Shown here: piece after piece, positions 49,716 to 52,921 of the stretch
Layout of the letters: every line of letters starts with the position of its first letter
Position numbering within the stretch: position 1 is the first letter of the stretch
Source of the DNA: Comamonas testosteroni
GTDB taxonomy: Bacteria > Pseudomonadota > Gammaproteobacteria > Burkholderiales > Burkholderiaceae_C
Length of the DNA: 64,000 bases
Assembly: GCF_030505195.1 (NCBI RefSeq)
Contig: NZ_CP129672.1
Location: 3,444,501 to 3,508,500, forward strand
Direction: 5' to 3'
Program-made: the position numbers and the translations under genes
Notes under the pieces: model-generated
What the model saw: only the letters and a program-made list of their open reading frames with translations
What the model was told of the DNA's origin: nothing
Database searches by the model: none

Positions 49716-51176
49716 ATGATTTCCCGCGAACCCACCATCGAACGCTTGGCCACGGCCCGTCAGTTGCTGCTTGAGCCCTTCGGCCTGGACGAAACCCATC
49801 TTGCGCGTGCGCTTGCCGAAATTCGCTCGCACCAGGTGGATGACGCCGATCTCTACTTCCAGTACACCCGCGCGGAAGGCTGGAGTCTGGAGGAAGGCAT
49901 CGTCAAGACCGGCTCCTTCTCCATCGACCAGGGAGTAGGTGTTCGGGCGGTCAGCGGCGAGAAGACGGCTTTTGCCTATTCCGACGATATTTCCGAAGCC
50001 TCGCTGCTGGATGCCGCACGTACCGTGCGCTCCATCTCCAGCGCCACCCAGACGCGCCGCGTCAAGGCGGGTGCGCAGAAGATTGCGCCAAGCCGCTCTC
50101 TGTACCCTGAACTGGACCCCATCAGCACGCTGGACAGCACGGCCAAGGTCGAGCTGCTGGGCAAGGTGGAAAAGCTGGCCCGCGCCAAGGACCCGCGCGT
50201 GGTACAGGTCATGGCCGGTCTTGCCAGTGAATACGATGTGGTGCTGGTGGCCCGTGCAGACGGCACGCTGGCGGCCGACGTGCGCCCGCTGGTGCGCCTG
50301 TCGGTGACTGTGATCGCCGAGCAGAAGGGCCGCCGCGAGGTGGGTTCCTCCGGTGGTGGTGGTCGCTTCGGTCTGGCCTATTTCAGTGACGAGCAGATCA
50401 GCCAGTATGTGGACGAGGCCGTGCATGCAGCCCTGGTCAACCTCGAATCGCGTCCCGCGCCTGCAGGCGTGATGACCGTGGTGCTGGGCTCGGGCTGGCC
50501 CGGCGTGCTGTTCCACGAGGCCGTGGGCCATGGTCTTGAAGGCGACTTCAACCGCAAGGGCTCCAGCGCCTTCAGCGGCCGCATCGGCCAGCGTGTGGCT
50601 GCCAAGGGCGTGACCGTGCTGGATGACGGCACGATTGCCGATCGTCGTGGCTCTCTGAACGTGGACGACGAAGGCCATGTCAGCCAGAGCAATGTGCTGA
50701 TCGAGGACGGCATTCTCAAGGGCTATATCCAGGACTCGATGAATGCGCGCCTGATGGGCGTCAAGCCCACGGGCAATGGCCGTCGCGAAAGCTACGCCCA
50801 CATCCCCATGCCGCGCATGACCAACACCTATATGCTGGGTGGCGACAAGGATCCGCAGGAGATCATTGGCTCCATCAAGAAGGGCCTGTACGCCACCAAC
50901 TTCGGCGGCGGTCAGGTGGACATCACCAGCGGCAAGTTCGTGTTCTCTGCCAGCGAAGCCTATTGGGTGGAAAACGGCAAGATCCAGTACCCCGTCAAGG
51001 GCGCGACCATCATCGGCAGCGGCCCGGAGTCGCTCAAGCACATCAGCATGATAGGCAACGACATGCGCCTGGACTCGGGTGTGGGCACCTGCGGCAAGGA
51101 AGGCCAGAGCGTGCCTGTGGGCGTGGGTCAGCCTACGCTGCGCATTGACGGCCTGACGGTTGGCGGCACGGCCTGA
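49716..51176 (+). CDS. tldD: Metalloprotease TldD
   Basis: A 486-residue zinc protease that with TldE (PmbA) trims peptides such as microcins and CcdA. The HExxxH motif is at residue 267 ([15 protein letters not shown]), and the [36 protein letters not shown] and SAEAYW-type ([28 protein letters not shown]) regions are conserved. The start [11 protein letters not shown] at 49716 is preferred; the frame is open further upstream through the terminator, which is unlikely to be translated. tldE is not in this window. Confidence 0.95.
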
Positions 51177-51213: not shown

Positions 51214-51248
51214 AAACCCCGCTTTGCATGACAGAGCGGGGTTTTTCA
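51214..51248 (+). terminator. Intrinsic terminator after tldD
   Basis: AAACCCCGCT (51214-51223) pairs with AGCGGGGTTT (51235-51244), followed by TT and CATTTC. A perfect 10-bp stem. Confidence 0.85.
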
Positions 51249-51576
51249 TTTCAGCGTGCTGCAAACCGTTCGCCACCGACCGTTAGCGGCAACAAGGCTT
51301 GTGGCAGAGCGCTTTGTATCGCCTGGCAGCAGGGTTTTTCATGGTTTTTCATGGGCTGATGCTGAATATTGCTGATTCGCTGAAAAATTGCACTGATACT
51401 TGATAAATGGAAATTTATATCAATAAAATTCTGAAAAATAAGAAAAAACGCAAAAATACTGCGTTGGATTAAATATTAAAAAATGCGTCATTTCAGAGGG
51501 GGAACCTGTTTTTGACAGAACAGCAGTGCGAGCTGCTGATGTTGCAATGCAAAAGAGCTGTGCTACATTGAAAGAC
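51249..51576 (+). promoter_or_regulatory. Upstream region of the DAHP synthase leader, with a candidate promoter
   Basis: The first part is featureless; 51360-51490 is very AT-rich with runs of A and T that could act as an UP element or H-NS-type site. TTGACA at 51512-51517 is a perfect -35 box, though the matching -10 at 17 bp (GCTGAT, 51535-51540) is poor. TTGCAA (51542) with TACATT (51564-51569) is an alternative but would leave almost no leader before the ATG at 51577. No gene is seen. Confidence 0.45.
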
Positions 51577-51639
51577 ATGCAAACGCAACGCGCCTATTTC
51601 TTTTACTTTTGGTTCTCGCCCCCGGCGGCTGAGAGGTAA
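51577..51639 (+). CDS. Aromatic amino acid leader peptide of the DAHP synthase gene
   Basis: A 20-residue frame: MQTQRAYFFYFWFSPPAAER. Seven consecutive residues, YFFYFWF, are Phe (four), Tyr (two) and Trp (one). The peptide's last codons overlap one arm of the antiterminator, and the terminator begins 31 bases after its stop. This is the layout of ribosome-mediated attenuation: stalling at Phe/Tyr/Trp codons when charged tRNA is scarce should favour read-through into the DAHP synthase gene. A ribosome-binding site is weak (GAAAG, 51570-51574). Confidence 0.85.
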   Translation: MQTQRAYFFYFWFSPPAAER

Positions 51640-51703
51640 TAGCGCGCACCCTGCAAACACCTCCCAAAGAACCGCCGAAGCTGCAAAGCCCGGCGGTTTT
51701 TTT
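51624..51703 (+). promoter_or_regulatory. Attenuator: antiterminator and intrinsic terminator before the DAHP synthase gene
   Basis: Terminator: AACCGCCG (51670-51677) pairs with CGGCGGTT (51691-51698), followed by TTTTT. Antiterminator: GGCGG (51624-51628) inside the leader peptide can pair with CCGCC (51672-51676), and GAGG (51633-51636) with CCTC (51660-51663), which breaks the terminator. The two structures share the same bases, so they exclude each other. The DAHP synthase start codon is 58 bases after the T-tract. Confidence 0.85.
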
Positions 51704-51760: not shown

Positions 51761-52921
51761 ATGACTGCTCTGAACACTTCCGCCACCGATTCCTGGTATC
51801 GCGCCGGCTCCCCCAAGACAGGCCAGACCGACGACGCACGTATCAAGGACATCACAGTGTTACCCCCTCCAGAGCACCTCATTCGCTTCTTCCCAATCTG
51901 CGGTACAGCCGTGGAAACGCTGATCAGCGACACTCGCCGCAGCATCCACAACATCATGCGTGCGCAGGATGACCGTCTGCTGGTCATCGTCGGTCCTTGC
52001 TCCATTCACGATCCGGCTGCTGCCCTGGACTACGCCCGCCGCCTGGCCGTGGTGCGTGAGCAGTACAAGGACACGCTGGAAGTGGTGATGCGCGTCTACT
52101 TCGAGAAGCCCCGCACCACCGTGGGCTGGAAGGGGCTGATCAACGATCCCTACCTGGATCAGAGCTATCGCATCGACGAAGGCCTGCGCATTGCGCGCCA
52201 GCTCCTGATCGACATCAACCGCCTCGGGGTGCCTGCGGCCAGCGAGTTCCTGGACGTGATCTCGCCCCAGTACATTGGTGATCTGATCAGCTGGGGCGCC
52301 ATCGGTGCCCGCACCACGGAAAGCCAGGTGCATCGTGAACTGGCTTCGGGTATTTCGGCGCCTATTGGCTTCAAGAACGGCACGGACGGCAATATCCGCA
52401 TTGCCACCGACGCGATTCAGTCGGCCAGCCGCGGCCACCATTTCCTGTCGGTACACAAGAACGGCCAGGTCGCCATCGTGCACACGGGAGGCAATCAGGA
52501 CTGTCACGTGATTCTGCGCGGTGGCAAGACGCCCAACTACGATGCCGCTCATGTGGCGGCCGCCTGCCGGGATCTGGAGGCAGCGGGCCTGACGCCTTCG
52601 CTGATGGTGGACTGCAGCCACGCCAACAGCAACAAGCAGCATGAGCGCCAGAAGGATGTGGCCCGCGATATTGCGGCTCAGATCGCCGGTGGCTCCAGTA
52701 GCGTGTTCGGCGTGATGATCGAAGGCCATCTGGTCGGCGGTGCGCAGAAGTTCACACCCGGCAAGGACGAGGTCTGCGATCTGACCTATGGCCAGAGCAT
52801 TACCGATGCCTGCCTGGGCTGGGATGATTCCCTGGCAACGCTGCAAGAGCTGTCGCAGGCCGTGAGCCAGCGCCGCGCTTCTGCGCTTGCCAGCAAGCAG
52901 GAAGCCGAAGTGCTCGCCTGA
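51761..52921 (+). CDS. aroG: Class I 3-deoxy-7-phosphoheptulonate (DAHP) synthase
   Basis: A 386-residue type I-alpha enzyme of the AroF/AroG/AroH kind, which condenses phosphoenolpyruvate and erythrose 4-phosphate at the entry of the shikimate pathway. LVIVGPCSIHDPAAALDYA, MRVYFEKPRTTVGWKGLINDP, GARTTESQVHRELASG, GFKNGTDGN and MVDCSHANSNK contain the metal and substrate residues. Whether feedback is by Phe or Tyr cannot be decided by eye, so aroG is used loosely. Expression is probably set by the Phe/Tyr/Trp attenuator directly upstream. A long terminator follows. Confidence 0.93.
   Translation: MTALNTSATDSWYRAGSPKTGQTDDARIKDITVLPPPEHLIRFFPICGTAVETLISDTRRSIHNIMRAQDDRLLVIVGPCSIHDPAAALDYARRLAVVREQYKDTLEVVMRVYFEKPRTTVGWKGLINDPYLDQSYRIDEGLRIARQLLIDINRLGVPAASEFLDVISPQYIGDLISWGAIGARTTESQVHRELASGISAPIGFKNGTDGNIRIATDAIQSASRGHHFLSVHKNGQVAIVHTGGNQDCHVILRGGKTPNYDAAHVAAACRDLEAAGLTPSLMVDCSHANSNKQHERQKDVARDIAAQIAGGSSSVFGVMIEGHLVGGAQKFTPGKDEVCDLTYGQSITDACLGWDDSLATLQELSQAVSQRRASALASKQEAEVLA

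Follow-up and report, generated by a model that had tools for sequence, protein, structure and literature searches.

A predicted ribosome-mediated attenuator with an aromatic leader peptide precedes a DAHP synthase gene in Comamonas testosteroni and many other Burkholderiales

A short element upstream of a class-I DAHP synthase gene of Comamonas testosteroni is very probably a ribosome-mediated transcription attenuator of that gene (probability about 0.88). It lies in the window, the whole stretch of 64,000 nucleotides that was analyzed, and is made up of a leader peptide with a run of seven aromatic codons, an antiterminator, and an intrinsic terminator. DAHP synthase is the first enzyme of aromatic amino acid synthesis, and the entry of carbon into every aromatic amino acid is under its control. 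The reading draws on the anatomy of the element, its conservation, the coevolution of its pairing regions, and computed folding, in which the stall window fits the aromatic run.

The controlled gene is aroG-like and occupies positions 51761..52921 of the + strand, as do all features below. Against TIGR00034 its product reaches 532.6 bits, where the cut-off is 173.2; against the AroG equivalog NF006723 it reaches 552.7, slightly under the cut-off of 568. There are 57 nt between the end of the T-tract of the leader terminator and the start of the gene's frame at 51761. The preceding + strand frame ends at 51176 and has a terminator-like hairpin behind it (51214-51244), so the leader is probably a separate transcription unit. 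The same genome encodes a second DAHP synthase gene (L002), which is 57 percent identical, and no aromatic leader is present in the roughly 450-500 nt scanned upstream of it. This suggests that attenuation is limited to one of the two isozymes in this genome.

The leader peptide frame, MQTQRAYFFYFWFSPPAAER, spans 51577..51639 and is composed of 20 codons and a stop, with the ATG at 51577 and TAA at 51637-51639. Codons 7-13 (51595..51615) encode the aromatic run YFFYFWF, and GGCGG (51624-51628) follows inside the frame. The initial annotation had placed this 20-codon frame, an antiterminator using the GGCGG, and a terminator at 51670-51698 with a T-tract before a DAHP synthase gene. Sequence reading confirms the leader frame, GGCGG, and terminator, in that order, upstream of the gene. 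The YFFYFWF frame is the sole ATG frame with at least six of seven aromatic residues on either strand of the window. Dinucleotide shuffling of the 300-nt upstream region gave a fully aromatic heptapeptide (7/7) in an ATG frame once in 5000 trials. An in-frame ATG is also found at 51547, earlier than the leader ATG but upstream of the -10 box.

The intrinsic terminator (51670..51703) has arms at 51670-51677 and 51691-51698 and a T-tract at 51697-51703; CCGCC begins at 51672 and the T-run at 51697. Its hairpin has a computed energy of -17.9 kcal/mol (z -4.1), which was equaled by none of 200 shuffles. The 151-nt stretch overall has a stability slightly above that of its shuffles (z -1.8, 10/200). 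In the minimum-energy fold, a 1:2 hairpin (51606..51635) acts as an anti-antiterminator, where part of the FWF codons pairs with GCUGAGAG and GGCG is sequestered. Region 2 (51623..51637), placed by the fold with a ribosome at W12 and by the swap test below, is composed of CGGCGG (51623-51628) and GAGGU (51633-51637). Region 3 (51659..51677) is composed of ACCUC (51659-51663) and CCGCCG (51672-51677). Folding, the swap test, and covariation give region 3 two partners: region 2, forming the antiterminator, or region 4, forming the terminator. The 1:2 hairpin, the second antiterminator helix, and the placement of the promoter on the leader ATG are additions to the initial annotation.

Conservation was followed in two kinds of sample. 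The first is a named sample of DAHP-synthase-anchored loci from 80 genome records (Comamonas, Delftia, Acidovorax, Variovorax, Limnohabitans, Hydrogenophaga, Polaromonas, and others). A leader and terminator are present at 79 of these 80 loci; the 80th, L062, has 31 nt of upstream sequence, and both it and L002 are excluded from the leader table. The second relies on a covariance model, R1, built from 57 non-redundant sequences. The leader, its two alternative structures, and the DAHP synthase gene stay together across the home family: R1 matches 147 of 150 genomes of the home family (that of Comamonas, Acidovorax, and Limnohabitans) and 124 of 126 genera, and every match precedes a DAHP synthase. 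In 145 cases the match is on the same strand and ends between -14 and 121 nt ahead of the DAHP synthase match; the remaining two are located close to contig ends and likewise run into a DAHP synthase N-terminus. Two of the three genomes without an R1 match have no DAHP synthase match, and the third has a weak one only (E 2.6e-59).

Across the order, R1 at E 0.01 yields matches in 75 of 300 genomes; the home family supplies ten and the 290 other genomes supply 65. A DAHP synthase follows 64 of these 65. The 65th match (G434) is the weakest (E 0.006), has neither a leader nor a DAHP synthase, and was set aside as matching by chance. A broader model, R2, produced many short terminator-only matches (178/300 in the order at E 0.01, 87/232 in the class at E 0.05), and its counts were restricted to full-length 1-146 matches with E 2e-7 or better. 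Such R2 matches occur in 82 of 300 order genomes, ten from the home family as counted by eye; order hits from R2 only include G261 and G425. Among the 232 genomes sampled across the class, they occur in three home-family genomes and two of family f60 only, and both f60 matches precede DAHP synthase. Similar elements stand before DAHP synthase at L303 and L304, from one family outside the order, with the leaders SFYFWYYFPKPLAEEG and RFYRWYYFPKPPAEEG; these sequences hint at transfer or an older origin.

The putative leader promoter is an extended -10 element, TGCTACATT (51561..51569), that ends 7 nt before the leader ATG. A weak -35-like hexamer, TTGCAA (51542..51547), is located 16 nt before the -10 and falls below the promoter-scan threshold. 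A strict sigma-70 scan does not list the leader promoter because its -35 is poor. At 75 of the 79 named loci, 6-8 nt separate the end of the motif TGnTAnnnT from the leader ATG, compared with 0.06 per offset elsewhere. The remaining four (L051, L057, L058, L069) have an ATG 6 nt before the one chosen by the script, and this ATG is 6-8 nt from the box. Among the 147 home-family genomes, TGn precedes the -10 in 131, and no -35 consensus is seen. R1 contains the -10 columns and promoter counts on its hits are biased toward that box; therefore, the DAHP-synthase-anchored count (75/79) is the one that matters. The spacing between the -10 and the ATG is looser in other families.

The usual distance from a -10 element to the start site would place +1 at or beside the A of the leader ATG. 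A Shine-Dalgarno-like motif is found before the leader ATG at none of the 79 named loci and before the DAHP synthase match start at 40 of 79, a rough control since the gene may truly start elsewhere than the match does. The -10 spacing and the missing Shine-Dalgarno-like motif together suggest that the leader mRNA is probably leaderless.

An aromatic leader is present in 209 of the 212 elements (147 home-family and 65 order matches). The three elements without a detected leader are G434, G412, and G435. The latter two (L176, L181) belong to one f43 genus and have lost the run before DAHP synthase, with GGCGG and the terminator retained. Read in frame, the run positions are 89 percent aromatic; the two alternative frames give 29 and 18 percent. 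The run is kept as amino acids: TTT/TTC and TAT/TAC are exchanged, and whole codons are inserted, e.g., FYFYFWF, YFFGYFWF, and SYFYFTWFF.

Phe is found in all 209 leaders, Tyr in 200, and Trp in 162, with all three in 157. The three occur together in 134 of 147 home-family leaders versus 23 of 62 others, and Trp is present in 138 of 147 home-family leaders versus 24 of 62 from other families. Among the DAHP-synthase-anchored named leaders, 78 of 79 have Phe, Tyr, and Trp; the exception, L082, has YFFYFGF and no Trp. Phe is therefore the constant signal and Trp the one most readily lost. From its codons, the leader is predicted to sense all three of these amino acids. Leaders of families f4, f10, f31, and f43 (L126, L131, L134, L137, L138, L124, and others) are often without Trp, e.g., FYFYFYGF, FFFFFYF, and FFSFYFY. 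Their composition suggests that specificity changes through codon swaps inside one RNA framework.

Downstream of the run, the constraint differs in kind. GGCGG occurs in all three reading frames (frame 0, 102 cases; frame 2, 67; frame 1, 3); constant as nucleotides across differing frames, it is therefore kept as RNA. The distance from the start of the last aromatic codon to GGCGG is 11-15 nt in 174 of 201 leaders, a count that leaves out the 8 of 209 without a GGCGG-like motif. A distance of 11-15 nt is about the reach of a ribosome. The tails of the leader peptides bear on a very improbable alternative, that the leader is an arrest peptide like TnaC, which responds to free Trp; the nascent chain itself, and not a lack of charged tRNA, would then stall the ribosome. 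The tail FSVPGG does look conserved as a peptide in part of the home family, yet tail frames differ (PPAAER, VPGG, AVGGREF, KPLAEEG) while the nucleotides GGCGG stay constant. Moreover, inducing a biosynthetic gene needs stalling at low, not high, amino acid.

Attenuation by translation of the run also predicts two competing stems, and the initial annotation had suggested testing both for covariation. A Comamonadaceae-only alignment is little informative, with 5 of 12 terminator pairs invariant; the stem core barely varies in this family, and a broader alignment was therefore needed. In 96 diverse sequences, the terminator stem is paired in 96.4 percent of cells, and five of nine pairs have changed on both sides (0/500 shuffles). 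A T-run closes all 212 elements, which is partly by construction since the elements are model hits. In the Comamonadaceae-only alignment, the 1:2 helix, UUCUC:GAGAG, is paired in 95.8 percent of cells, and its pairs are mostly invariant.

The antiterminator combines two helices: GGCGG:CCGCC, its nearly invariant core, and a second one that varies (GAGGU:ACCUC in the window). Because it is nearly invariant, the core is hardly testable by covariation. In a swap test of the flanks of regions 2 and 3, native combinations have a mean of -7.15 kcal/mol versus -6.01 kcal/mol when swapped (z -7.4, 0/2000 permutations). The result is seen in the home family (0/2000) and in the other families (2/2000). 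Four control segments gave z values from -2.0 to 1.1, one of them mildly shifted (z -2.0, 50/2000). For this test and for the stall folding below, 8 of 209 elements with unplaceable regions and then near-duplicates were removed, leaving 161 of 201.

The base adjacent to the core covaries between families in all three regions, being mostly C-G-C here and U-A-U in f4, f10, f12, and f31. Its 2:3 signal is gone on within-family shuffling (719/2000) and rests on few events, and a second 2:3 extension pair has no covariation. The extension-pair test was performed on 106 elements, after removal of the 32 of 201 without exact cores and then of near-duplicates. Covariation is thus found as compensatory changes in the terminator and as coevolution of the 2/3 flanks, but the core varies too little to contribute. 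The proposed terminator and GGCGG antiterminator both hold up under these comparisons.

Known RNA and peptide families offer no match. Rfam holds amino acid leader families (Phe, Trp, and others), and none of its families reaches the gathering score in the window; the best score at the element is 24.8 bits versus 55, from an unrelated sRNA family. Four leader peptides searched against Pfam and NCBIfam matched no model. Riboswitches also have terminator and antiterminator pairs, and the alternative structures could in principle answer a ligand or an RNA-binding protein instead of translation. This explanation is extremely unlikely given that no Rfam family comes near its gathering score at the element, that no conserved structured domain is seen beyond the pairings described, and that the aromatic run is under coding constraint.

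Ribosome-mediated attenuation was modeled by folding the RNA before arm 4 is made, with a ribosome mask running from 18 nt upstream of the first A-site base to 12 nt from it. In the window, the probability of 2:3 pairing, P(2:3), is 0.37 with no ribosome, 0.21-0.44 at codons 1-6, 0.65-1.00 at codons 7-12 (YFFYFW), 0.29 at F13, and 0.00 from codon 14. In the model, then, a ribosome stalled at any of six out of the seven aromatic codons frees the antiterminator. Across the 161 non-redundant elements, mean P(2:3) is 0.41 with no ribosome, 0.85 at the first aromatic codon, 0.79 at the last, and 0.28 at the stop. It exceeds 0.5 in 143, 129, 65, and 50 of the 161 elements at the first aromatic codon, the last, with no ribosome, and at the stop, respectively. 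Pairing is not always abolished at the stop because many stops are more than 20 nt past GGCGG.

A broader measure counts any upstream pairing of arm 3, with Escherichia coli trpL and pheL as positive controls. For trpL it is 0.34-0.67 at W10-W11 versus 0.06 at the stop, and it also rises at codons 3-4. The pheL leader responds to the masked ribosome as well, with 0.74-0.84 at F6-F14 versus 0.16 at the stop. In the window, the stall positions (0.53-0.66) overlap the early codons (0.36-0.61), and codons 19-21 are high at 0.64-0.77. The GGUUC of the Trp-Phe codons (51611-51616) has its complement, GAACC (51669-51673), at the base of terminator arm 3. A possible extra 1:3 pairing, GGUUC:GAACC, might account for the upstream pairing that remains when the modeled ribosome is at the stop codon.

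When the full-length RNA is folded at equilibrium, the terminator dominates every state (means 0.96-0.98 for the 161 elements, 0.99-1.00 for the window); therefore, the antiterminator must act by kinetics. The computed equilibrium terminator is 0.96 for trpL and 0.00-0.10 for pheL at codons 6-11. Dominance in every state is also what a constitutive terminator would give, one that ends a short transcript or insulates the gene beside an accidental, unused aromatic frame, and G412 and G435 keep the terminator though their run is lost. That account is highly unlikely: the run is kept as amino acids despite varied codons and in-frame insertions, its spacing to GGCGG is narrow, the alternative pairing coevolves, and the element is almost universally positioned before one gene.

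In the proposed attenuation mechanism, the transcription start, the translation of the leader, the stalling, the termination, and the choice of which amino acid of the three is important are predictions. Transcription would start at or beside the A of the leader ATG, so that the ribosome would load on a leaderless message. With charged tRNA-Phe, tRNA-Tyr, and tRNA-Trp plentiful, the ribosome would pass the run and cover region 2 (GGCGG/GAGAGG), and the 3:4 terminator would end the transcript at about 125 nt. Should any one of these tRNAs run short, the ribosome would stall with its A-site on codons 7-12 and cover region 1. Region 2 would then be free, 2:3 would form before arm 4 is made, and RNA polymerase would continue into the DAHP synthase gene.

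Among the literature matches listed, the closest functional relative is aroR of Corynebacterium glutamicum, where, as described, a Phe-Tyr-Phe leader precedes aroF and read-through rises under Phe, not Tyr, limitation (PMC11802643; aroR also in PMC4046766). Both systems pair an aromatic leader peptide with attenuation of a DAHP synthase gene. Compared by description, aroR belongs to Actinobacteria and has Phe-Tyr-Phe, whereas the element here has a seven-residue run with Trp, a shared nucleotide framework, and an order-wide spread. The E. coli pheL/pheA and pheST attenuators share a Phe-rich leader, a terminator, and an antiterminator (PMC11802643). By the same account they differ in their target genes and in sensing Phe, and the window element matches no Rfam family.

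The trpL of Sinorhizobium meliloti is described as a leaderless leader mRNA that starts at the ATG and has an attenuator, but it is a Trp leader before trpE(G); trans roles are reported for its RNA and peptide (PMC7298713). The uORFC-13-1 motif of Acholeplasma, upstream of aroF, is likewise described as a predicted Phe-codon leader with a terminator before a DAHP synthase gene (PMC8632094). It differs in having its own ribosome-binding site and a U-run that codes for at least one Phe, and it is represented by 24 sequences from Acholeplasma and environmental DNA (PMC8632094).

None of the literature matches listed describes attenuation of a DAHP synthase gene in Comamonadaceae or elsewhere in Burkholderiales. 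The initial annotation had known of no description of this arrangement before aroG in Comamonadaceae; within those matches this stands for the family and order, but attenuation of DAHP synthase as such is already described for C. glutamicum aroR/aroF (PMC11802643). The predicted switch belongs to a well-known type of attenuator (trpL, pheL, C. glutamicum aroR), and the version with a seven-aromatic run seems to be unlisted. A more speculative and unlikely extension, by analogy, is a leaderless OR gate in which shortage of any of tRNA-Phe, tRNA-Tyr, or tRNA-Trp would open entry to the shikimate pathway. Codons swapped within a fixed six-codon window, with Trp dropped in several families, would tune specificity, and the terminated leaderless RNA and hydrophobic peptide might act in trans as in S. 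meliloti trpL.

For genome annotation, the element is a candidate for a new RNA family. Because some leaders have Trp or Tyr codons and others do not, they provide a natural series on how one leader integrates several amino acids. Nearly every sampled genome in the Comamonas/Acidovorax/Limnohabitans family carries the predicted switch before one DAHP synthase, and regulation of this enzyme is therefore predictable and directly testable across the family.
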